The notes under the pieces are model-generated. The model was given only the letters and a program-made list of their open reading frames with translations, was not told the DNA's origin and did not search any database. The position numbers and the translations under genes are program-made. Source: a virus. From it: a stretch of 36,053 bases of DNA. Shown here one piece after another: positions 4,043 to 36,053 of this stretch. The DNA lies in the IMG/VR virus record IMGVR_UViG_3300035698_008813, positions 1-36,053 of that record. One strand, written 5' to 3'. Every line of letters starts with the position of its first letter. The stretch's first letter is position 1.

Positions 4043-4646
4043 TTTTCCTCCGATAGAAACGACGCTCGCCGTCGAATAATTCAAGACTACACTCAAGTTC
4101 AAAAGACTTTAGCAATTCATCCCTGCCTTCGTCATTGCGAACGTCTATTATCAAAAGTCCTCCAGGGCGAACTAGACGACTGGTTTCTTTTGCATAAGCT
4201 TCCAGTGGGAAATGCCAACCCCATGCAAACAAAGAAAGTGCCAAGTCTACTTTTACATCTGTAGGGATCTCACAGTCATCTGTTGCCTCAAGCAGGTGAA
4301 TCTGCTTTGCGGGCACACCGTTGTTGCCCATCAGTTTCCACGCTGTCCGAAGCGACGTATAGAAAGCGTCTTGGGTTTCTGTTCCATATTCTGCGTTGAT
4401 TGATGTTTTATCCAGTAAATAAAAGTCAGCATCAGGATACAGTGAATACAAACGTGCATCTATGGCGGCAATGCCACACCCGATGTCGAGGATAGCGTCA
4501 GCCTCGTCGGACAACCAGGGCCTTATTAGCGCCATATCGTACTCGATAATCTCTGAGTACATCAAATCAAGTCGCCGGATCGCTGTACGCTGGAGGACGG
4601 CATAGGCCAACATCTCGTGATTCAGTTTCAAGTAGTAAGATTTCAT
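4029..4646 (-). CDS. Class I SAM-dependent methyltransferase
   Basis: A protein of 205 residues beginning MKSYYLKLNHEMLAYAVLQR. Residues about 52-60 read ILDIGCGIAAID, the glycine-rich SAM-binding motif I, and LLDKTSINAEYG follows as the acidic end of strand 2. VDLALSLFAWGWHFPLE and LVRPGGLLIIDVR correspond to motifs IV and the post-V strand. The substrate is unknown; in this cassette a sugar O-methyltransferase or similar is likely. It overlaps the preceding small gene by four bases and the next sulfotransferase by 14, so the genes are clearly co-translated. Confidence 0.8.
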   Translation of the reverse strand: MKSYYLKLNHEMLAYAVLQRTAIRRLDLMYSEIIEYDMALIRPWLSDEADAILDIGCGIAAIDARLYSLYPDADFYLLDKTSINAEYGTETQDAFYTSLRTAWKLMGNNGVPAKQIHLLEATDDCEIPTDVKVDLALSLFAWGWHFPLEAYAKETSRLVRPGGLLIIDVRNDEGRDELLKSFELECSLELFDGERRFYRRKNDSG

Positions 4647-4924
4647 TGCCCAATTCCCAGGCTGTCGGCAAGTACCATCAAGGCGGTTTGCAGATCTTCT
4701 TCTGAACCATTGAAAAACGACGGCTTCATCTTGCCGTTTTTCAATGTGTAGAATCCATCAGGCAGCCACTTGCCTTTCTTCTTGAACAGGTTACGGTATG
4801 CCGTTCTGTATTTTTCATCTTCTGGAGAAACCGTTATAAGCAGTCCATTCATCTTGTACAGAATACTCTCAAAGATGAATAGATTCTCTACCTGTTGGCG
4901 TTTCAGTTTACGCTTTTGGCCCAC
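4643..4924 (-). CDS. Small hypothetical protein in the glycan cassette
   Basis: A charged protein of about 93 residues. I favour GTG 4924, which has GGAGG eight bases upstream and overlaps the glycosyltransferase end by 17 bases; ATG 4852 (MNGLLITVSPEDEKYRTAYR) is the alternative. The basic first part (QKRKLKRQQVE) is followed by a segment KGKWLPDGFYTLKNGKMKPS and a C-terminal helix. I recognise no family. Its tight coupling to a glycosyltransferase and a methyltransferase suggests an accessory role in the same pathway, which is inference only. Confidence 0.6.
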   Translation of the reverse strand: MGQKRKLKRQQVENLFIFESILYKMNGLLITVSPEDEKYRTAYRNLFKKKGKWLPDGFYTLKNGKMKPSFFNGSEEDLQTALMVLADSLGIGQ

Positions 4925-5675
4925 TAGCCCATCCTCCAAATTGATAATCAAACACCCAGTGTTTTTGCTGATAAACGTGTCCGGCCATCCGCTTGTCATA
5001 TTTCTTGGCTGTGAAGTGAGTTCCGACACGTCCAGTATTTGTCACACGGGATAGGGCGGGAAATAGATTGTACACTCGCTCCCCCCGCTTTCTAATGTAG
5101 TTTGCCACGCTGTTGTCCCACATCCCCGGACGCCCCCACAATATCTCGGCGTTGCACCAAGCCGGATTGCCATAAGACCACCACTGGCGCTCACCCATCA
5201 AAAAGCCCCACCCAACAAAGGCCCGCGAGAAAAGTAGGTCTTGAGGATTCTCTCGTCCCATATCGTGCATTTTACACAAGCATAATGCCCCGATGTCATC
5301 GAGGCCTGGCGTGGCTAATAGTTGCGCTTCGTTTTCAATGTACCAGTTTGCGACGTCAAGCGCATCAGGAGATAGTACCAGGTCATCTTCCAGGTACAGG
5401 TTGTAGCCAGCCCCTTCGTGGTCAAATACGTGATTCATTAGCCAGTAGGTATTTTGGTTTATACCTTCATTCTCTCTCGCCCGATGAATCGCCGTGTCAA
5501 CAAAGTCAACTTCTTCTGCTACCGCCCAGACATCATCAAAATTCCCACCACCCGCGTCGATACGGATGTGGAGTTTCCAATCATCAAAGGATGCTTGTTG
5601 GTTATATAGTGAATCAGTGAGCAAGCGCAAGTTGTCGGGTCTGTTGTAAGCCGCTATCGTGATCGTTTTATTCAT
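4908..5675 (-). CDS. Glycosyltransferase, GT-A fold (GT2/GNT-I-like)
   Basis: A protein of 255 residues starting MNKTITIAAYNRPDNLRLLT, with AAGGAAGG just before the ATG. The opening strand followed by AYNRPDNLRLLTDSL is the classic nucleotide-sugar binding start of GT-A enzymes, and NLYLEDDLVLSPDAL (near residue 100) supplies the acidic metal-binding EDD. The later GWGFLMGERQW and RPGMWDNSVANYIRKRG segments resemble enzymes related to GNT-I, which add a sugar to a glycan. It overlaps the upstream methyltransferase by eight bases. Donor and acceptor cannot be read from the sequence. Confidence 0.75.
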   Translation of the reverse strand: MNKTITIAAYNRPDNLRLLTDSLYNQQASFDDWKLHIRIDAGGGNFDDVWAVAEEVDFVDTAIHRARENEGINQNTYWLMNHVFDHEGAGYNLYLEDDLVLSPDALDVANWYIENEAQLLATPGLDDIGALCLCKMHDMGRENPQDLLFSRAFVGWGFLMGERQWWSYGNPAWCNAEILWGRPGMWDNSVANYIRKRGERVYNLFPALSRVTNTGRVGTHFTAKKYDKRMAGHVYQQKHWVFDYQFGGWASGPKA

Positions 5676-7087: not shown

Positions 7088-7818
7088 TGTAGCCCCTCAT
7101 TTACATTGTCTGCAAAATCAGTCTGTTGCAAAAATGCAACGACTTCATCCCAATTGGCAACTGTCTCTGCCATTGTTCCCCGGTGGAGCTTACGCATATC
7201 GCTATACATCTCTCGATATGGTACTTCCAGAAATTGACAAATCTCCTCGGTGGCAGAATTGGCAATACTGGATGTTTCTACGCCTCTCGTCATCTGTTCG
7301 TAAGTCACGTGCAAGACAGGCAATCCGCTCTCTTGAAATCGCTGGCTCCAATCCCCTTGTCGCTGCGTCAAACTACGACACCAGTTGAAAACATCATACG
7401 GGTCTAGCGTTGCCGGTGTTGGGTGTACCTGTTCAAATGTATGCGTCGGATGATCGCACACTTTCCCTGAGCGTTGCGCAATGTTTATCGCAACGCTCAC
7501 AGACTGCTCTACAATATTCTCGCGTGTTAGATAAATGATCTTTACCTGCGGCTCGTACTCTATGATACATTGCCATACCTGCTCACGGCTTGCGTGGTTG
7601 TGCATTAGCTTACACATACAGGCTCGATAATGCTGTTGGCACCAGATCAATTTCAATCGTTCAGTCTGGTCTTGGCAGGCCACCCCCCACCGGCTCCCCC
7701 GGTGGAATGGCTCCCCCCTTGTGCAAAATATGTCGGGATGATTACTCAGGCAGCAGGCTAAAAATGTACCGCCTGTGCGTGGCCCGGCCAGTATGATAGC
7801 GGGTTGCGGGTTTTTCAT
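7084..7818 (-). CDS. Sulfotransferase family protein (copy B)
   Basis: A protein of 244 residues beginning MKNPQPAIILAGPRTGGTFL. The PAPS 5'-phosphosulfate loop is seen in PRTGGTFLACCLSNHPDI with RGEPF following, and the 3'-phosphate region in KIIYLTRENIVEQSVS. LPVLHVTYEQMTRG corresponds to the same region of copy A. The start overlaps the stop of the DUF616 fusion gene as ATGA, with AGAGG upstream. It would move sulfate from PAPS to a carbohydrate or tyrosine. Two sulfotransferases in one phage cassette suggest two sulfation sites on one product. Confidence 0.8.
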   Translation of the reverse strand: MKNPQPAIILAGPRTGGTFLACCLSNHPDIFCTRGEPFHRGSRWGVACQDQTERLKLIWCQQHYRACMCKLMHNHASREQVWQCIIEYEPQVKIIYLTRENIVEQSVSVAINIAQRSGKVCDHPTHTFEQVHPTPATLDPYDVFNWCRSLTQRQGDWSQRFQESGLPVLHVTYEQMTRGVETSSIANSATEEICQFLEVPYREMYSDMRKLHRGTMAETVANWDEVVAFLQQTDFADNVNEGLQ

Positions 7819-8996
7819 TCTGGCCTCTTGTATGCTGCCAATGAGTCCGGCGTGTCTAGTTGTTCCCATCTTGCTTCCTGTGCCCATTCGCTGATTGCCC
7901 GCCTCACTCCCTCGAGGTGAGGCAGTAGTACCAAGTGCTTGGGCAGTGGGGCATAGTCATGCATCACGACTATGCCCCACGGTACAATTTTAGGTGTCCA
8001 ATTCACCAGGTCTGCTTTCACCCCAGCATAATGATGATCGCCGTCAACGAAAAGCAGATGAATCGGCCCGTCAAATGCCGTGTGGCAAGTCACGCTATCT
8101 GCTATGATGTCAGTGGTACGCAAGCTAGGAGACGGATCAACGTCTGGTTTTTTGATGTCAATTCCATACAATTTCGCTTTCTGTGAACCTGCCCGTAAGC
8201 AATACATCGAAGCATAGCGAAAAATACCGATGTTCACAAAGACCGGATCTGTGAACCGCCCGGCAATGAGCGAGGCGGTGTTCTTGAGGTATTGTCGCTC
8301 GTCTGGTGTTAACTGTTTTCCGTAAGCTGTTTTCCAGTCTACCATTGCAAAATCCTGTCGTTGTCTCTCGTGGGGAAATCGCTTGAAATCATCACTTGTT
8401 CCCTTGAATAAATTCCCTGGCAACGTTGCCACTTTTATACCTGTCTTCCAGCGCACATAATCGAATGATAATTGATCACGCTTTGCACCTCTCTCGTACT
8501 CGTTCCACCACAGTTCGTTGAATCGCTCCACAGCCTCAGTGTGTCGCCTGATGAGCACGTAACAAGCCGATAATCCAAAGTGCTCTGGAAATCCATCTTG
8601 GTGATAACGTTCCATCTGTGCACCGACTGTGCCCGGTTTCGCCTTGCTCTGGCGTAACACCTCGCGGGCTTCCTGGTAAATACAGTCACGCCCTTCAGGA
8701 TGGGTAAACACCGCCATATCAGCGTCTTTGAGATAGTTCGTTATTAACCTTTCAGGACTGGTAAGCATTTGAACGTTGCCATCGTGATAGATTGAATATT
8801 CACAATTGAGATGTTTGTGAGCCAGAATCTTACATCGTCGGTTTGCCCATTTCGGATCGCGGCCTGAGTAAATAGACTGGTATGACCAGCCGTTCACGGA
8901 CGGCATACCGCCGTCTGTAAAGCATAGGCTTTGATACCTCGTTGGTAGCAACGTGTCGTAACCTCCAAAGACAGCGGAGTAAATAACGATGCTCAT
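7815..8996 (-). CDS. Fusion: DUF616-type glycosyltransferase plus methyltransferase-like domain
   Basis: A protein of 393 residues starting MSIVIYSAVFGGYDTLLPTR. Residues 1-215 fit DUF616 (TOD1/MUCI70-like, GT-A related): VIYSAVFGGYD at the start, NRRCKILAHKHL and SIYHDGNVQM near residues 53-75, and SKAKPGTVGAQMERY later. Residues about 245-393 look like a Methyltransf_24 domain: PVFVNIGIFRYASMYCLR takes the place of motif I, and LLFVDGDHHYAGVKADL is close to the DADH motif of copies A and B. The first glycine of motif I is less ideal than in the paralogues, so activity of the second domain is uncertain. The order suggests glycosylation followed by methylation by one polypeptide. Confidence 0.75.
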   Translation of the reverse strand: MSIVIYSAVFGGYDTLLPTRYQSLCFTDGGMPSVNGWSYQSIYSGRDPKWANRRCKILAHKHLNCEYSIYHDGNVQMLTSPERLITNYLKDADMAVFTHPEGRDCIYQEAREVLRQSKAKPGTVGAQMERYHQDGFPEHFGLSACYVLIRRHTEAVERFNELWWNEYERGAKRDQLSFDYVRWKTGIKVATLPGNLFKGTSDDFKRFPHERQRQDFAMVDWKTAYGKQLTPDERQYLKNTASLIAGRFTDPVFVNIGIFRYASMYCLRAGSQKAKLYGIDIKKPDVDPSPSLRTTDIIADSVTCHTAFDGPIHLLFVDGDHHYAGVKADLVNWTPKIVPWGIVVMHDYAPLPKHLVLLPHLEGVRRAISEWAQEARWEQLDTPDSLAAYKRPE

Positions 8997-25563: not shown

Positions 25564-26286
25564 ATGGGAAGAAAAACCGGTTGTGAAAATTGTGGCAAAG
25601 AGCAATACAAACACGATTGCTATATTAAACGAAGCAAGAGCGGTATTTTCTTTTGCTCTTGGGAATGCCAGCGTGCCTACAGAAAAAAGCAGAAAGTGTT
25701 CACTCGCTGCCCAGCTTGCGGAAAAGAGTTTTATGCAAAACCGTACAGGCGAAAAAGGGCTGGCGCTGTTGCTTGTAGTCCTGAATGCAGAATGGTTATA
25801 TTGGGATGGGGAAGTCAAATAGTTGCTTGTGATTGGTGCGGCAAAGAGTTTAGTCGCAAAAATACACAAATCAACAAACACAACTTTTGCTCTCGAAAGT
25901 GTATGGGCAAATGGCAATCGCAAAATCTGACCGGTGAAAATCACCCCAGCTGGCGCGGCGGCTATAAACAATACTATGGCCCAACTTGGAAACGCCAGCG
26001 CAGAAAGGCACGACAGCGCGACAACTATACCTGCCAAACCTGCAACCTGACCGAGAGTCAATCTGACCATGCCCTGGAAGTGCATCATATTAAACCATTT
26101 CGACTTTTCGATAATCATAGTAAAGCCAACTATCTATCAAACCTCATCACGCTGTGTCGTGATTGCCACGTTGCCGCCGACGCGGTTGCCAGACGCATCT
26201 TTGATGAGGGATGGAACGAGTCCCATATCCGCAAATCGCTGGAGAATTACAGCACAGTATTTAGGCTCTATTTCTATCATCCTTGA
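25564..26286 (+). CDS. HNH endonuclease with multiple zinc fingers
   Basis: A protein of 240 residues from ATG 25564 (MGRKTGCENCGKEQYKHDCY). Residues 1-115 hold three or four CxxC-type zinc fingers (CENCGKEQ, CPACGKEFY, CDWCGKEFSRK). TGENHPSWRGG near residue 120 is a NUMOD-like DNA-contact motif. The HNH domain (about 150-200) has CQTCNLTES, HALEVHHIKPF and NLITLCRDCH. Such free-standing enzymes often act as homing endonucleases. The last 50 residues are antisense to the 3' end of the methyltransferase gene. Confidence 0.85.
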   Translation: MGRKTGCENCGKEQYKHDCYIKRSKSGIFFCSWECQRAYRKKQKVFTRCPACGKEFYAKPYRRKRAGAVACSPECRMVILGWGSQIVACDWCGKEFSRKNTQINKHNFCSRKCMGKWQSQNLTGENHPSWRGGYKQYYGPTWKRQRRKARQRDNYTCQTCNLTESQSDHALEVHHIKPFRLFDNHSKANYLSNLITLCRDCHVAADAVARRIFDEGWNESHIRKSLENYSTVFRLYFYHP

Positions 26287-27366
26287 TTTGCGCCCAAGTC
26301 TCTCACAGGCTATGCCGGTTGTGCCGCTTCCGGCAAACGGATCATAAACATCGCCAATCAAACAGTTACCCACGAGAAGCCGCACCCAGTCAAACGGTTT
26401 TTCGTGCTTGTGCGATTTGTGGATTTGCGTAATGCCCATCTGAAACACATCTGAAAGATGCTTACCGCGTTGATCGGGCACAAAATCATATTCTCCCCTC
26501 GTATTTCTAACAGTGTGCGCCTCAAGTGGCTCCCCATAATGAGCACCGTTAAAATTATAATCTGTGAGATTGCCGTACCATAGGGCCAGTTTACCGCGTC
26601 GCAGTGGGCGGTTAGGAGTATACCACGATGTCACGCAATCCCAAATAAAAACCCAGGCCGGGGAGCCAAGAAGATCAATTATTGTACCTGCCCGAAATCC
26701 ATCACAGAACGCGAGGGTTGATTCCCACTTCCCTTCTGGCACTTGAAAACCTCCATCCCAGGACGGATCATAAAATAGATTACAGGGCAGTTTTCCCAAC
26801 TGCGCCACCACCGCCGCGTCCGTGCAATCACCGCAGATCAACTTGTGTCTGCCTATCTCCCACAGATCGCCCGTTTTAACCTTCCACTTCTCTTGCAACT
26901 CATCTGCCCGCGAAATCTGCGGTTCTGGCGCTGGTGGCAACTCCTCCTCAATCCCCGCCAACAAATCAGCCAGCACCTCGTCGTCGATCCCCGGAATCTC
27001 AGTCGGGTCATCCCGATCCCCCAGCAGCGCCGCCAGCGTCTCGTTGTCGAATTTGCGCGAGGGCGAGAGGTTGTCGGTTATCATTAAGTCCTCAGCCTCT
27101 TCACGCGATAGATGACTCTGGTCACTAACGACGATCTTTGTGTCACCTTTCTGCTTGGCCGCCAATAGCATACCGTGGCCCGCGATGCAGTAGAGAACGC
27201 CGTCGTCAGGGTCTCTCCAAACTACCAGGTTTTTGTATTGATTGAACTTTTCGAGGCTCTTCTCCAGCGTGTCAACCTGAGCATCGGGATGCTCATTATA
27301 GTTCTGAGGATGGAAAGTCACCTCGTCGACGCCAATCAGTTTCAAGGTTTCGAGTAGGTTTGTCAC
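26137..27366 (-). CDS. ParB-like domain fused to DNA methyltransferase
   Basis: A protein of 409 residues from GTG 27366, which overlaps the preceding stop as GTGA. Residues 1-100 resemble a ParB/Srx-like domain (FHPQNYNEHPDAQVDTLEKS, CIAGHGMLLAAKQKG). From about 165 a beta-class methyltransferase follows: WEIGRHKLICGDCTD, motif IV as LFYDPSWDGG near 205, and motif I DPFAGSGTTGIACERLGR near 350. Such enzymes methylate adenine or cytosine in DNA; DPSW differs from the usual DPPY/DPPW. The last 50 codons overlap the HNH gene on the other strand. Confidence 0.85.
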   Translation of the reverse strand: MTNLLETLKLIGVDEVTFHPQNYNEHPDAQVDTLEKSLEKFNQYKNLVVWRDPDDGVLYCIAGHGMLLAAKQKGDTKIVVSDQSHLSREEAEDLMITDNLSPSRKFDNETLAALLGDRDDPTEIPGIDDEVLADLLAGIEEELPPAPEPQISRADELQEKWKVKTGDLWEIGRHKLICGDCTDAAVVAQLGKLPCNLFYDPSWDGGFQVPEGKWESTLAFCDGFRAGTIIDLLGSPAWVFIWDCVTSWYTPNRPLRRGKLALWYGNLTDYNFNGAHYGEPLEAHTVRNTRGEYDFVPDQRGKHLSDVFQMGITQIHKSHKHEKPFDWVRLLVGNCLIGDVYDPFAGSGTTGIACERLGRKSRMIEIEPKYCAVILQRFADMGLVPSLIKDASGNRVGGNVAITTQRDEV

Positions 27367-29970: not shown

Positions 29971-30837
29971 CTACTCCTCACGCGCCACAAACGGCAGGTA
30001 CACACGCTTCCCATACAACGGAACAAGCCCCGGCAATTCCGGCATCCCGTCCCAGGTCAACGCGACGGGGTAAATTCGTAAGAGTTTAAACACGACGTCC
30101 GAATCTGTTCTGCCATACTCTACCCATTCAATTCTGCTACTCCAGGTCGAGCAAATCGCGGTCAGTAGCGCATCATCATCGTAGCCGACTATCACCCAAG
30201 AATGCCCGCCACCGCCGATGTAACCCAGGGCCGGGAGAGGATAACCGCGCTCTAGTTCTGCCACGACGGTATCCCAGCCGAAGGAATAGACCGTGTCAAT
30301 ATCTATCTGGTACTCCGGTAAACCGTGTGTTACAGAGACATAGCGCAGGTACTCGACCACTCCAGGCAGAACTTTGTCAGACCAGGTTGAGCCGTAAACC
30401 AGTCCATCAGCCGATGCGCTCGTCCTCATATATCCAGCGAGTGACGTTGGCGGATCTGGCGGATCGCAATCGGGCAACTCTGTACAATCAGGGATGGGAG
30501 GGCCATAATCGATTGGCAAAGATACAGTTTCGTACCATTCGGGACTTTCGATATAGTCGCTCTCCGGTTTGTCGTCGGGAATAGCATTGAACCCCAGATC
30601 GTCGAGGTACTTTAGCCAACAAAAGCTCGCAGTAGGGGAACAGCCGCCCGTCCAGGTGTGGCAGATACTCTCTGCGCCATCGAGGATTAGAGCGCCGAGG
30701 GATGGTTTTTGTTGGATAGCAAACTGTACAACCGCTGGGGGGATGGGGCCTAACGATGCGCTGTGCTTTTCGCCTCTGGCAAAGATGAGAAGCGTGGCGA
30801 GTGCGGCGATTGTAATCCAGTTTGGTTTGGGTTTCAT
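29971..30837 (-). CDS. Secreted C39-like cysteine peptidase
   Basis: A protein of 288 residues; ATG 30837 is better spaced from the GGA than ATG 30846. A short basic start and a hydrophobic core (ITIAALATLLIFA) form a signal peptide. CSPTASFCWLKYLDDLG (Cys near 66) and GGGHSWVIVGYDDD (His near 212) match the catalytic Cys and His regions of C39-type papain-like peptidases. It ends GKRVYLPFVAREE, a tail resembling those of secreted Chloroflexota proteins. It may cut host surface proteins or help lysis. Confidence 0.65.
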   Translation of the reverse strand: MKPKPNWITIAALATLLIFARGEKHSASLGPIPPAVVQFAIQQKPSLGALILDGAESICHTWTGGCSPTASFCWLKYLDDLGFNAIPDDKPESDYIESPEWYETVSLPIDYGPPIPDCTELPDCDPPDPPTSLAGYMRTSASADGLVYGSTWSDKVLPGVVEYLRYVSVTHGLPEYQIDIDTVYSFGWDTVVAELERGYPLPALGYIGGGGHSWVIVGYDDDALLTAICSTWSSRIEWVEYGRTDSDVVFKLLRIYPVALTWDGMPELPGLVPLYGKRVYLPFVAREE

Positions 30838-30904
30838 AATTTTCATCCTGACATCTCTGACTCTGGGTTTGTACTCTCTCAGTCACCGCTATAGATTGCA
30901 CTCG

Positions 30905-31312
30905 TTACTGATTGCCAACCTGATAATTATGATACTGCCACTCATCCATCAGTACCACGTACCTACCTCGTGGCCCGTAAGGAAACGTGTGAAAACTACT
31001 TCCGCACTTGCGGAGATACCGAGCAATAATCCAATGCCAGAGCCGCCTAAGTGTCACTTTTTGTCCTGATGTTTCAAAATAGCTCTTGGAGGCTTGCAAA
31101 TAGATCGGGGGTTGCGTTGCCTCACTCAAAACGGCTGCCCAGACACGACCGAACAGTAATGCTGAGAGACGTTCGCGGAATGACATTTGCCAACAAGAAA
31201 CGCATCTCTCGTTATCCCTCCATACCGGTAGTGACAAAATGCTTTCATCTAAAAAGTCACTTCTGTATCCTTCTAATGTATTTGTCATTTCATCAAATTC
31301 TACTGGTTTCAT
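30905..31312 (-). CDS. Conserved phage hypothetical protein
   Basis: A protein of 135 residues starting MKPVEFDEMTNTLEGYRSDF. CVSCWQMSFRERLSALLFGR followed by VWAAVLSEATQPPIYL is a pattern I know from conserved unnamed proteins of diverse phages. It has no signal peptide. Function unknown. It is coupled to the T5orf172 gene by ATGA. Confidence 0.6.
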   Translation of the reverse strand: MKPVEFDEMTNTLEGYRSDFLDESILSLPVWRDNERCVSCWQMSFRERLSALLFGRVWAAVLSEATQPPIYLQASKSYFETSGQKVTLRRLWHWIIARYLRKCGSSFHTFPYGPRGRYVVLMDEWQYHNYQVGNQ

Positions 31313-31626
31313 TTAGTTCCTTTTTCATAGACTGCCGTATTCAGAATGCATCCCTGGCTGCGTGCTATAACAGTTGCTAATGCCAGCCATAACGCAACCT
31401 GTCTATCATCCAGTAAAAATAGTTCACCGTCTACTCGCTCTCTCGCAAACAACTCGTGGAACCAGGTTTCTACCATTTTGCCATCGTCTACCTGGATAGA
31501 ACCTATCAAAACGAGTGGTGTGCAAAACTCGCGGGAAAGCTCACGGCGGCGTCGTTCGACATTGCTTGAGAATCCTATTTTGTGTAGGCGGCTATCGATA
31601 TTTGTGACGTGCATCAAATAGACCAT
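31309..31626 (-). CDS. T5orf172/MUG113-type (GIY-YIG-like) protein
   Basis: A protein of 105 residues starting MVYLMHVTNIDSRLHKIGFS. The VYLMHV opening, HKIGFSSNVERRRRELSREF and the later WFHELFARERVDGELFLLDD are typical of the T5orf172/GIY-YIG-related family. Members may cut DNA. A Glu near residue 58 in VETWFHEL could be catalytic. It is the gene after the coiled-coil protein. Confidence 0.7.
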   Translation of the reverse strand: MVYLMHVTNIDSRLHKIGFSSNVERRRRELSREFCTPLVLIGSIQVDDGKMVETWFHELFARERVDGELFLLDDRQVALWLALATVIARSQGCILNTAVYEKGTK

Positions 31627-32878: not shown

Positions 32879-33193
32879 TCAACAGCGCAGTGCATCGCGC
32901 AACCGCCTTATGGCGTCTTCTGGTAGTAGATCGCCTTCTTTCCAGGGAATTGAACGTGTTACCTTCCAGCTTTCCGGCGGCTCTGGAAACGTCACCGGTT
33001 GCCATTGGCCGGTTACATCGTAAAGATTGTAAAAAGTATTCCGCCCCCAAGTGTAACGCGGAATATCCTCGATCAACTCGACCTCGACGTAGAAAAAACT
33101 GAGCGGTTCATCATAACCTAAAAATCCCCACGTGCCATAGAACCAGTAGAACCCCGGCTCTGTGGGCCACTCGCGTGTCCAGTTATTCGCCAT
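32879..33193 (-). CDS. Hypothetical protein
   Basis: A 104-residue protein starting MANNWTREWPTEPGFYWFYG, with GAGGTG before the ATG. The EWPTEPGFYWFYG start is shared by many unnamed phage proteins (WP-x-x-PGYYW-x-G). The sequence is aromatic and acidic. No function is known. It follows the structured RNA element. Confidence 0.6.
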   Translation of the reverse strand: MANNWTREWPTEPGFYWFYGTWGFLGYDEPLSFFYVEVELIEDIPRYTWGRNTFYNLYDVTGQWQPVTFPEPPESWKVTRSIPWKEGDLLPEDAIRRLRDALRC

Positions 33194-33325: not shown

Positions 33326-33622
33326 CTATACCTCATCGGAGAAAAGCTCAAACTCGTCTTTCTTGAAAACGTCGTGAATCAGGGAAGATCCGCCGCCGAC
33401 GAACAAACAAGTTGCGATTCGTCCAACGAGCAAGTCGGGAATGTAGGTAGTAAACAGGTTGACTCTGGCAAACCAGGCCAGGATCGCACCTGTTACCAGC
33501 GCCACGTAAACCAGCCACCACAAGTCCAGGTCGGGGAACTTTTTGCGAAACGGCGCGGCCAGGCAGTCTATAACGGCCTTGTTTGCGCCAGCGAGAAAAA
33601 GACCTGCTGTAAAAGTTTCCAT
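33326..33622 (-). CDS. Holin-like membrane protein
   Basis: A 98-residue protein starting METFTAGLFLAGANKAVIDC; GGAGG lies seven bases before ATG 33622. An amphipathic N-terminus (LFLAGANKAVIDCLAAPFRK), a clear membrane helix (WWLVYVALVTGAILAWFA) and a second weak one (RIATCLFVGGGSSLIHDVF) fit a small holin. It is the first gene after a strong promoter, consistent with a late, abundant protein. Identification as a holin is inferred from size, topology and neighbours. Confidence 0.55.
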   Translation of the reverse strand: METFTAGLFLAGANKAVIDCLAAPFRKKFPDLDLWWLVYVALVTGAILAWFARVNLFTTYIPDLLVGRIATCLFVGGGSSLIHDVFKKDEFELFSDEV

Positions 33623-33645
33623 CACAAAACCTCCTCAATTATATG

Positions 33646-33711: not shown

Positions 33712-33740
33712 AGTATACACCAGGGAGAGCCGCTTGTCAA
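33712..33740 (-). promoter_or_regulatory. Sigma-70 promoter of the holin-like operon
   Basis: Minus-strand TTGACA (33740-33735), 17 bases ending CTGGTG, TATACT (33717-33712). The -35 overlaps the last codons of the csf3-like gene. The transcript would start near 33705. Confidence 0.8.
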
Positions 33741-34477
33741 CAGGGAATGTCTGTAAAAAATTCAAACATTGTGTCAATTTTCGCCCCTGCTCGCCACCCC
33801 ATCGCAAAAAGTGACGGTTTCCAGAATGGCGGTGTCCAACCAACAAGTGAGGGGTTTTGCAACCAGGGGATCAAATCTGCTTGCGCTGGCACGGGTTTTA
33901 TCAATGCTCCATTACGTTGCACAATGTCTCGTTCTGTGTAACCGGCCTGCTCAACCAAGACACTTGCTACTCGTCCAAGTCTCAGCTTGCCTATATGAGT
34001 AAAATAGTTGCAAAGTTCTTGGACTATCTCCAGGTTTCCAATACACCGCGCCTTGTAGGTACTGCACACCCGTGTGGGCGTAGGCAACCGGCGTTCCATC
34101 CACGGTCCATTTCGCGTCTGGAGTTTAGGCCGGTTGTGCAAAAAACCTTCTGAATTGCGCTTGTGTCGCACATACACATCCTCAACGGCTTGGGCAGCTG
34201 GGTACAACACTGATGCAGCCCACAGCGGAAATCCATTCTTGTCCCGCCACAGCATCTTGAATGGTAACGGTATCCAATAGCCATCCTCTGAATCTGCGAG
34301 TAGTCGTCCTTCGGTAGCAATCTCCACGACGGCGCGGGCCAATAGGCCATCGAAATGAATCGGGTCATAGTTGACGATCCGACTATTGGATTGCAGATTA
34401 AATGTCACACGCAACGGCTCACAATTGCACTGCGCGAATCCTGCGGTAAATCGGTCAAGTTCTGGTAGGTGGATCAT
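33737..34477 (-). CDS. csf3-like: Csf3/Cas5-like RAMP protein
   Basis: A protein of 246 residues starting MIHLPELDRFTAGFAQCNCE, coupled by ATGA to the CysH-like gene with AAGGAG upstream. EPLRVTFNLQSN (20-31) and YDPIHFDGLLARAVV (37-51) are the first RAMP strand and following helix seen in Csf3. STYKARCIGNLEIVQELCNY (139-158) and THIGKLRLGRVASVLVE (160-176) match the late glycine-rich RAMP loop of Csf3 (IGk-x-x-G-x-V). GWTPPFWKPSLFAMGW near 213-228 is similar to the PPYW motif there. In type IV complexes this subunit caps the guide RNA end. Confidence 0.6.
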   Translation of the reverse strand: MIHLPELDRFTAGFAQCNCEPLRVTFNLQSNSRIVNYDPIHFDGLLARAVVEIATEGRLLADSEDGYWIPLPFKMLWRDKNGFPLWAASVLYPAAQAVEDVYVRHKRNSEGFLHNRPKLQTRNGPWMERRLPTPTRVCSTYKARCIGNLEIVQELCNYFTHIGKLRLGRVASVLVEQAGYTERDIVQRNGALIKPVPAQADLIPWLQNPSLVGWTPPFWKPSLFAMGWRAGAKIDTMFEFFTDIPC

Positions 34478-35256
34478 ATCATTCTCCTTATCGAAGGAAA
34501 GTGTATTGATAACTGGTTAAATTTCTCTGGAGCGATACGTTTCAATGTAGAGTACCGTCCTAGATTCGAGGCAACCTCTCCAAGAAGAATTGAAACACGC
34601 CAATGCTTTCTAGGTACGCCAATTTCGGCCATCTTGTCGTAAATTTTGTTATATGGCAAGTCGCGTGACGCAATATAAGCCCACACGTCCTCATCTTTCC
34701 AGTCAACTATTGGTGTGCAGTGGTGATGCTGTACGCCATCCAGGTATTCAAATTTGACTGGATAAAAATATCCGCGCACTTTTCTTGACAAGCGCCGCCC
34801 CGCGCTCTCTTGCGCCCGCAATCCCATCACGGTCACGTCAAACTTGTACTTTCGGACAAATCTAACGCTTGGCTCACCGACTAGAAAGGCGAACCAATCT
34901 ACCTCATCGGCAAATTTTTCGGGTTCATGCCCCCAATATCCAAAATCACGACACAGATCGGCCAATGTTCTATAAGACTCGAAAACATCCACATCTGGAT
35001 GATGGTTTTTTAGCAATTCAAAACATTGATCATATTCAGTTTCAATACCGCTACTGAAAAATGCAGCGGGTACGCCTGGATATACCCGCCGTACTAGATC
35101 GAGTGTCACTGTTGAGTCTTTCCCTGTACTGAATGAAACTCCCATCTTGAAACCGCGCTCTACCAACGATGAAAGCAGATCAATAGCACGATCAGCTTTT
35201 CGCTGAAACGCTGGCAGCATAGCATGCGCTTTATCCCCGATGGTAATTGCCCTCAC
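34474..35256 (-). CDS. cysH-like: CysH-like PP-loop (PAPS reductase family) protein
   Basis: A protein of 260 residues from GTG 35256, which overlaps the stop of a 24-residue ORF as GTGA. MGVSFSTGKDSTVTLDLV (38-55) is the PP-loop that binds ATP/PAPS. FFSSGIETE, MGLRAQESAGRR (144-155) and CTPIVDWKDEDVWAYI (180-195) are conserved in the family. The C-terminal ECGLH of classic PAPS reductase is missing, so it is probably not an assimilatory reductase. Type IV-B CRISPR loci and many phages carry such proteins; the role is unknown. Confidence 0.8.
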   Translation of the reverse strand: MRAITIGDKAHAMLPAFQRKADRAIDLLSSLVERGFKMGVSFSTGKDSTVTLDLVRRVYPGVPAAFFSSGIETEYDQCFELLKNHHPDVDVFESYRTLADLCRDFGYWGHEPEKFADEVDWFAFLVGEPSVRFVRKYKFDVTVMGLRAQESAGRRLSRKVRGYFYPVKFEYLDGVQHHHCTPIVDWKDEDVWAYIASRDLPYNKIYDKMAEIGVPRKHWRVSILLGEVASNLGRYSTLKRIAPEKFNQLSIHFPSIRRMI

Positions 35257-35327
35257 TTACCCTGGCCCCTTGTTCCTCCCCCTGATGGGGAACCACCCGG
35301 TGGTCTTTGCTTGAATAGAGCTTTCAT
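35253..35327 (-). CDS. 24-residue Gly/Pro-rich peptide
   Basis: A short frame MKALFKQRPPGGSPSGGGTR then GQGK. Its ATG 35327 has one of the best ribosome binding sites in the window (AGGAGGTGAT, six bases before), and its stop overlaps the GTG of the CysH-like gene. It may exist to load ribosomes for the CysH-like gene, whose own site is weak, or be a genuine small protein. Confidence 0.5.
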   Translation of the reverse strand: MKALFKQRPPGGSPSGGGTRGQGK

Positions 35328-35353
35328 ATCATCACCTCCTGTTCCAGGCAGTT

Positions 35354-35578
35354 TTACGTATTATAACTTAGAATCCGATATGGGTAAAGTCGCCCATTAT
35401 CCTCGGCTAAAAGAAAACCTTGTTTTTCGAGCACTGGCAATTTACGATGCACATTGCTCTTTGGAATACCTAATGATCGCGCAATATCTACCTGGCGACA
35501 ACCAGGAACTAACATCACCTGTGCATAAATTGCCGCCAGGAGTATGTGATTTATTTTACGACGACCGCCGAACAACAC
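35354..35578 (-). CDS. Winged-helix DNA-binding protein
   Basis: A protein of about 74 residues, probably from GTG 35578, overlapping the cas7-like gene by 28 bases. HILLAAIYAQVM, PGCRQVDIARSLGIPKSNVH and RKLPVLEKQGFLL are three helices of a MarR/IclR-like winged helix; LLAEDNGRLYPYRIL is the wing. The later ATG 35515 would lose the first helix. It may control the operon. Confidence 0.65.
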   Translation of the reverse strand: MLFGGRRKINHILLAAIYAQVMLVPGCRQVDIARSLGIPKSNVHRKLPVLEKQGFLLAEDNGRLYPYRILSYNT

Positions 35579-36053
35579 AATGTACCATCCAGTATTCCAG
35601 AAAACAGGCGCTCTTTGTTCTCCACCAGATACGCCTCATATTCTGCAACGCCACTCGGTTTCTCACCAAGCCAATCCACAGTGACATGTCCGTGTCCGCG
35701 TGCCGATTGGCCGCCGATCACGTTGTCATTGTCGGCGTAGTAAGCCACCGCTGCCGCGAGAGCACCCTGAGTCAATGCGGTGGTGTAGGGCGTCAGCGTC
35801 AACTCGACGTAGACCTGAGTACCTTTTATCAACGTTTCATAGTTGTAAATCATTTGCCCTTCGCCACTGGCCGTAGCATGGCGAGTGCGTGTCACACTGT
35901 CAAGCATCTCAAAAACGCTCGTTCTTGACTGCGCTGTGTCACGTAACGATTCAGGCAATGCGTCGACATTTTCAGAACATACAATCCAGGCCGAAACTTT
36001 TAACTTGCTCTCGCCTAGATCAAAAGACGCTGTAACTCCACCAAGCAGGTCAA
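35551..36053 (-). CDS. csf2-like: Csf2/Cas7-like RAMP protein, C-terminal part (runs off the right edge)
   Basis: The frame is open from the window edge to TAA 35551, giving 166 residues; an in-window TTG is not the real start. It begins DLLGGVTASFDLGESKLKVS and continues AWIVCSENVDALPESL. The C-terminal half, MIYNYETLIKGTQVYVELTL followed by TQGALAAAVAYYADNDNVIG and GQSARGHGHVTVDW, matches the end of Csf2/Cas7: a strand after a GT-x-x-Y motif, an alanine-rich helix, then GG-x-S-A-x-GHG-x-V-x-x-D. Cas7 forms the backbone on the guide RNA. Family assignment is from pattern only. Confidence 0.6.
   Translation of the reverse strand, partial: DLLGGVTASFDLGESKLKVSAWIVCSENVDALPESLRDTAQSRTSVFEMLDSVTRTRHATASGEGQMIYNYETLIKGTQVYVELTLTPYTTALTQGALAAAVAYYADNDNVIGGQSARGHGHVTVDWLGEKPSGVAEYEAYLVENKERLFSGILDGTLCCSAVVVK

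Follow-up and report, generated by a model that had tools for sequence, protein, structure and literature searches.

The virus record IMGVR_UViG_3300035698_008813 is a linear contig of 36,053 bases, here called the window, and the minus strand at its right end carries an operon that is almost certainly a virus-encoded type IV-B-like Csf module devoid of a clustered regularly interspaced short palindromic repeats (CRISPR) array. In the nearest relatives of this operon, the small subunit Cas11 is nested within the backbone subunit Csf2 (the type IV Cas7), where it is placed between the second and third strands, and it is very likely, judging from these relatives, that the csf2 gene of the window is nested as well. 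A nested Cas7-Cas11 in type IV is apparently previously undescribed.

Relatives were collected by alignment searches, which gave 28 viral loci via Csf3, 37 via Csf2 (with many contigs in common) and 6 contigs from metagenome-assembled genomes of bacteria; the module is thereby known from about 50 loci, numbered with an L below and mostly IMG/VR viruses. Alignments were needed since single-sequence searches with the window csf3 and cysH did not yield close relatives among viral contigs. Likewise, a single-sequence search with csf2 and csf3 of the window gave no match in annotated phages, and phmmer searches of the window proteins against the PDB returned nothing for Csf2 and Csf3 and only weak 3'-phosphoadenosine 5'-phosphosulfate (PAPS) reductases for CysH. 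The Csf2 fragment of the window shares 71% identity with L010, a 56 kb virus contig, and 66% with L009, in both cases at the C-terminus of a full-length nested Csf2, and the window csf3 is 62-64% identical to the csf3 of these two loci. Full-length Csf2 of L009 and L010 counts ~470 residues, compared with ~290 in ordinary IV-B. A hidden Markov model built from nested Csf2 matched two adjoining genes of canonical loci, cas11 at model positions ~50-190 and csf2 at ~200-450, indicating that the extra ~150 residues are the Cas11 equivalent. PADLOC Cas11 models also matched within Csf2 of L010 (0.003, 0.011 and 0.05) and of L040 (1e-4). When the insert alone was compared by hhalign with Cas11 of five canonical plasmid and phage loci, a P of 5e-7 was obtained, against 0.1-0.85 for five column-shuffled controls and 0.68 for a Csf1 control. 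Searched against all PDB sequences, the nested Csf2 profile retrieved both Csf2 (7.6e-10) and Cas11 (0.0023) of the IV-B structure 7JHY, which are separate chains there, and its list up to E 1 did not include IV-A Csf2; with the insert-only profile, 7JHY Cas11 was matched at 1.5e-4 and the next match stood at 0.5.

The predicted structures agree with this assignment. The AlphaFold model of L010 Csf2 (predicted local distance difference test, pLDDT, 80.5) displays two strands, an all-helical block at residues 50-193, then the remaining RAMP strands. Its superposition on 7JHY Csf2 covers 222 of 228 residues with a Z of 16.8 and begins at model residue 4, which places the first strands in the Cas7 fold and makes the helical block a true insertion. 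As the same model fits IV-A Csf2 with Z values of 16.7-18.8, the fold alone cannot separate type IV subtypes. Modelled alone (pLDDT 85), the insert superposed on chain g of 7JHY with a Z of 11.8 and 126 of 143 residues aligned, while the second-best match reached a Z of 4.2; chain g is Cas11, the name Csf4 (Cas11) being attached to chain h and the chains identical to it, five in all. In addition, most of the nested proteins match, over their first 46 residues, the N-terminus of viral Csf2 encoded separately, at 2e-5 to 6e-10. The L010 model contains one Cas7 fold, and several fused Cas7 domains were not seen. A frameshift or assembly artefact as the source of the fusion was rejected, as nested Csf2 is one continuous frame in 25 loci and one fold. 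The possibility of an unrelated, lineage-specific helical insert was also rejected, Cas11 having been matched by PADLOC, hhalign, the PDB profile and the fold.

The 56 loci matching csf2 divide into 25 nested ones, 21 with separate genes and 10, including the window, that are partial or unclear. The nested loci comprise both close relatives with a full-length Csf2, while the viruses of a sister set encode Cas11 separately. Since several of the nested contigs hardly differ from one another (L056/L057, L051/L055, L021/L023 and L025/L042, among others), the number of independent nested lineages is below 25. The history of the nested form was examined in a tree of Csf3, a protein without this trait. 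With 29 rows, a single branch (support 90/95, recovered in 93% of bootstraps) set the nested loci apart from the others, and with 51 rows one change still sufficed, the support then falling to 52/40; on these protein trees a single origin is favoured, not proven. Phage genes stand beside nested loci, namely terminase in L009, L012, L025, L051 and L053, and portal in L010, L020 and L021. Full-length nested Csf2 had no match in isolate phages and a single partial match in a plasmid collection, so that metagenomic contigs are the only source of the nested form in this analysis. Split viral Csf2 had no match in isolate phages either.

These relatives also tell what would lie beyond the contig edge. 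The gene order in L010 is csf1-like, csf2, two winged-helix (wHTH) genes, a small peptide, cysH and csf3, with a portal protein upstream. In L009, it is the C-terminus of csf1, csf2, wHTH, a B12-type radical S-adenosylmethionine (SAM) protein, a small HTH protein and csf3, followed by terminase. Most relatives with enough flanking sequence have a csf1-family gene immediately upstream of csf2, and we infer that csf1 and the N-terminal part of csf2 are located past the end of the window. The first-pass annotation had supposed that the edge hides csf1 and cas11; the first half of this proposal is in line with the relatives, but in them cas11 has no gene of its own and sits inside csf2, the ~300 N-terminal residues missing from the window including the nested Cas11 domain in L009 and L010. 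That annotation had also named two outcomes that would speak against its reading, the lack of a RAMP fold and ordinary phage genes to the right, and the relatives display a RAMP fold and csf1. Remote Csf1 relatives match PADLOC Csf1/typeIV_Cas8 at 1e-10 to 1e-12, while Csf1 of the clade closest to the window gave no direct PADLOC match and has lost one of the two cysteine pairs of the remote members. The position of the N-terminal part of csf2 outside the window would allow an ordinary short csf2 with a separate cas11 gene upstream, nesting being then restricted to the relatives. This is very improbable, because csf2 and csf3 of the window cluster with those of L009, L010 and L049, which are all nested (the Csf3 of the window groups with those of L009 and L010 with a support of 99-100 in both the 29-row and 51-row trees), and because its csf2 is 66-71% identical to nested proteins. 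As a separate observation, a wHTH-like sequence begins the csf1 reading frame at L053:465-1412 and, weakly, at L051:5063-5977, which suggests a wHTH-Csf1 fusion.

In the window, five minus-strand genes point away from the contig edge and would be transcribed in the order csf2, wHTH, 24-residue peptide, cysH-like and csf3. The tight, overlapping operon described from the sequence in the first-pass annotation was found with all its open reading frames and motifs: the junctions overlap by 28, 4 and 4 nucleotides, and the sole gap, 26 nucleotides long, separates the wHTH gene from the peptide. The C-terminal 166 residues of csf2 (35551-36051), a gene cut by the right end of the contig, were recognized as Cas7/Csf2-like through their DLLGG...SKLKV motif (GGQSARGHGHVTVDW), and PADLOC typeIV_Cas7 matched them at 9.6e-21. 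Overlapping the csf2 stop by 28 nucleotides, a GTG-started gene encodes a predicted winged-helix DNA-binding protein of 74 amino acids (35354-35578; Pfam HTH_IclR 1.7e-6, MarR_2 4.8e-6), and its homologues at the equivalent position in L009, L010 (two copies) and L049 make it, as had been proposed, a genuine extra component specific to this clade. The glycine-rich, basic peptide of 24 residues at 35253-35327 (MKALFKQRPPGGSPSGGGTRGQGK) was read directly from the sequence and is preceded by a strong ribosome-binding site (AGGAGGTGA). The CysH-like PP-loop protein of 260 amino acids (34474-35256) matches Pfam PAPS_reduct PF01507 at 1.9e-18; it retains the PP-loop and, in agreement with the earlier description of a protein without the ECGLH tail, ends without a C-terminal ECGxH. 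Finally, the ATG of csf3, the type IV Cas5 gene (33737-34477, 246 amino acids), overlaps the cysH stop (ATGA), and its product, described as a Csf3-like RAMP with an IGK-x-RLG-x-V loop, indeed reads IGKLRLGRV and matches PADLOC typeIV_Cas5 Csf3 at 1.4e-26. It also matches NCBIfam cas5_csf3 at 6e-12, which is under the cut-off of that model. Csf2, Csf3 and a cysteine-less CysH being all confirmed in the window, the type IV-B-like assignment stands, but the names of the two RAMP proteins had been exchanged between their coordinates. Window Csf2 and Csf3 also match PHROGs of unknown function, namely 22746 and, weakly, 34599.

The contig is a fragment of a tailed phage, as indicated by PHROGs profiles for a portal, a head maturation protease, a major head protein and, weakly, a terminase. 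Its backbone is common to L017 (terminase 78%, portal 70%) and L038 (terminase 58%); as both also have csf3 at contig ends, the csf module is kept within a phage lineage. Between the window and L010, most nucleotide changes in csf2, csf3 and cysH are at third codon positions (0.60-0.64, with 0.12-0.22 for second positions), which indicates purifying selection on the three genes. Together with the PADLOC and Pfam matches and with relatives sharing 62-72% protein identity with the operon genes, this shows that the open reading frames are not due to chance. A position at the contig edge and a gene order unlike the canonical one could suggest a functionless, decaying remnant acquired from a plasmid. 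However, the frames are open and tightly overlapping, selection acts on three genes, and the same phage lineage retains the module (terminase or portal relatives L017, L038 and L009), so that a remnant is extremely improbable, the codon-position data having largely refuted it.

The enzyme associated with these modules varies. In CysH, the PP-loop (S-x-x-GKDS) and conserved G, R, E, P, W and Y residues are retained, while ECGxH, the C-terminal catalytic motif of an ordinary CysH (PAPS reductase), is absent in 54 of 54 sequences; a IV-B CysH without its catalytic cysteine has been published already (PMC8175902). The nearest plasmid relatives of the window CysH are CysH-like genes of Rhodococcus that adjoin csf genes. 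An ordinary metabolic PAPS-reductase gene was rejected for a protein that is devoid of ECGxH, encoded inside a csf operon and closest to csf-linked CysH. A cysH gene adjoins most csf modules. A natural partner swap was observed at L009:2075-3361, where a B12-binding-type radical SAM protein occupies the cysH position of an otherwise matching module. Apart from this, a viral module of the split type, L027, has no cysH; it carries QueC, another PP-loop protein, between csf1 and cas11 (4414-5097) and a DNA sliding clamp after csf3 (7848-8987). These enzymes raise the alternative of a device for nucleic-acid modification or regulation, in which the Csf filament would offer RNA to CysH, or to a radical SAM or other enzyme, and thereby change host or viral transcripts. 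Such a role has been proposed for IV-B (PMC8175902) and would fit the presence of cysH by most modules, its replacement by a radical SAM protein in one close relative, the presence of QueC in another module, and a PP-loop retained after loss of the reductase cysteine. On the other hand, the modification is putative and the modules of L012 and L040 have no recognisable enzyme partner, and we consider this role rather unlikely.

A filament on RNA is what the solved IV-B complex of Mycobacterium sp. JS623 suggests by analogy. In this complex, Csf2 forms a filament along RNA whose length is regular, and every Csf2-Csf2 interface bears a Cas11; the complex counts six Csf2 and five Cas11, and its RNA is heterogeneous and not CRISPR RNA (crRNA) (PMC7937560). 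In the window module, Csf2 subunits would similarly polymerise around RNA of fixed length. As each nested Csf2 brings its own Cas11, one polypeptide would form both the backbone and the minor 'belly' filament with a fixed 1:1 stoichiometry, and Csf3 and Csf1 would cap the filament ends. CysH, with a PP-loop but no reductase cysteine, would draw on ATP to activate, by adenylation or in another way, a substrate linked to the complex (presumably the nucleic acid that it binds), and the wHTH protein would regulate the operon. We hold this RNA-filament mechanism for probable. The filament would capture host or competitor RNA, guide RNAs included, for counter-defence or inter-element competition. 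Capture of RNA to such ends is an existing proposal for IV-B in general. For the present module a counter-defence role is possible but tentative, based on its location in a virus, on the lack of a nuclease, an array and adaptation genes and on the published proposals.

Another possibility is that the virus module uses guide RNAs in trans, from host CRISPR arrays or acquired spacers, and, like IV-A, represses rival phages or plasmids by genuine RNA-guided interference instead of sponging RNA. IV-A performs crRNA-directed repression without cleavage, and the IV-B of Fuxiviruses carries a mini-array (PMC10848311; PMC11656645); Csf3 and Csf1 are moreover kept in the modules analysed here. However, the window and the flanks retrieved for its relatives showed neither a CRISPR array nor cas6, the viral contigs being fragments, and the only purified IV-B complex held non-CRISPR RNA even with a type I-E array next to it (PMC7937560). 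This explanation also gives no role to CysH, and we regard it as unlikely. An RNA family search gave no match, and the regular direct repeats seen in relatives were rejected as CRISPR arrays and taken as protein repeats, because their spacings are multiples of three or they lie in coding sequence. We favour, with good though not full confidence, a virus-encoded IV-B-like module with a nested Csf2-Cas11 that would form an RNA filament and might serve in counter-defence or inter-element competition. Several points weigh against it. The window holds the C-terminal third of Csf2 only, so that its nesting is taken from relatives. CysH is absent or replaced in some of them (radical SAM in L009, none recognised in L012 and L040) and is thus not strictly required. 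The counter-defence part leans on the circumstantial features listed above, and the analysis identified no RNA, target or partner of the complex and found no source of spacers or guides.

Compared with plasmid type IV-B systems (Mycobacterium sp. JS623, PDB 7JHY; plasmids of Rhodococcus and Xylanimonas), these modules share csf1, csf2, csf3, a Cas11 homologue and a cysteine-less CysH, without array or nuclease. They differ in that Cas11, a separate gene in the plasmids, is nested within Csf2 in the relatives of the window, and the operon described here places cysH before csf3, adds a wHTH protein and a small peptide and is borne by a virus. IV-B has been reported in 'some phages and prophages' (PMC11656645). 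The IV-B of archaeal Fuxiviridae is likewise encoded by a virus with cysH adjoining csf3; in contrast, it belongs to an archaeal virus and has all typical components plus a mini-array, nested Cas11 not being mentioned in the accessible part of that article (PMC10848311). Among isolate phages, Skermania phage SPI1 (KR011061) carries a complete IV-B set annotated as hypothetical proteins (orf40-44, L002:3063-6696); it resembles the present case by its csf1-cas11-csf2-csf3-cysH set inside a tailed phage genome, but its cas11 is separate and protein identity is only about 25-31%. With virus-borne IV-B both published for Fuxiviridae (PMC10848311) and carried by SPI1, a novelty drawn from the presence of a IV-B set inside a phage alone would be overstated. 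The nesting is another matter. The accessible part of the 2025 classification does not describe nested Cas11 for type IV, and the Cas7-Cas11 fusions that it discusses belong to type III and are effectors containing several Cas7 domains (PMC12669027). Nested type IV Cas11 was not found in the literature searched, whose coverage left out the type IV surveys PMC7038947 and PMC8658065 and supplementary files. The fusions of types III-D, III-E and III-I also join Cas11 and Cas7 in a single polypeptide; however, they have several Cas7 domains end to end with Cas11 between domains, whereas here Cas11 lies inside a single type IV Cas7 fold and nested Csf2 is predicted to be still able to polymerise.

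Nested Csf2 is thus a further route to the fusion of Cas subunits besides the end-to-end Cas7-11 effectors. Nesting, which apparently arose once, fixes a 1:1 Cas7:Cas11 relation to which the single solved complex comes only close (6:5). The function of type IV-B is a long-standing question, and here is a widespread virus-borne branch with the small subunit inside the backbone subunit. It is conceivable, as a tentative proposal, that a phage branch has rebuilt IV-B as a compact machine of four to six genes, in which nested Cas7-Cas11 would form both filaments beside a swappable nucleotide-chemistry partner, and that this machine is a stably inherited RNA-acting weapon or shield and not CRISPR immunity. 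A complex reduced to few genes makes expression and RNA pull-down simple, and the CysH-to-radical SAM replacement in a close relative offers a natural test of the purpose of the partner enzyme.

The micropeptide, which had been noticed in the window, has a counterpart in L010 (L010:10959-11027; MCSQQKPVGPSSGGGGSRDQGK), and a similar glycine-rich peptide occurs in L041 (upstream of 2121). They directly precede cysH in all three loci and end with TRGQGK, SRDQGK and GRDQ, respectively. Three cases with usable ribosome-binding sites suggest that the peptide is translated, and it is a possible nucleic-acid binder.

Some other loci have unusual arrangements. A split-form module lies within an 810 kb bacterial contig (L045, Dehalococcoidia contig BPIC01000002). 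In L031:6604-7881, csf2 is broken by one in-frame stop at 7696-7698, which may reflect a broken gene, a sequencing error or a stop-codon reassignment. On Gloeobacter plasmid pGMOR1 (L007:2254-7261), a type IV-like module joins an annotated Cas6 with CysH, csf2 and csf3. As for the rest of the window, the adjoining genes that had been taken as a lysis-type module (33326-33625, 32879-33193 and 29971-30846) are without any Pfam or PHROGs match. A ParB-like domain fused to a DNA methyltransferase is encoded at 26137-27366, and similar proteins occur in the vicinity of several csf modules, the one of L017 following csf3 directly; these surroundings are perhaps an anti-restriction neighbourhood. Lastly, a T5orf172/MUG113-domain protein (31309-31626), GIY-YIG-like, is a candidate free-standing endonuclease.

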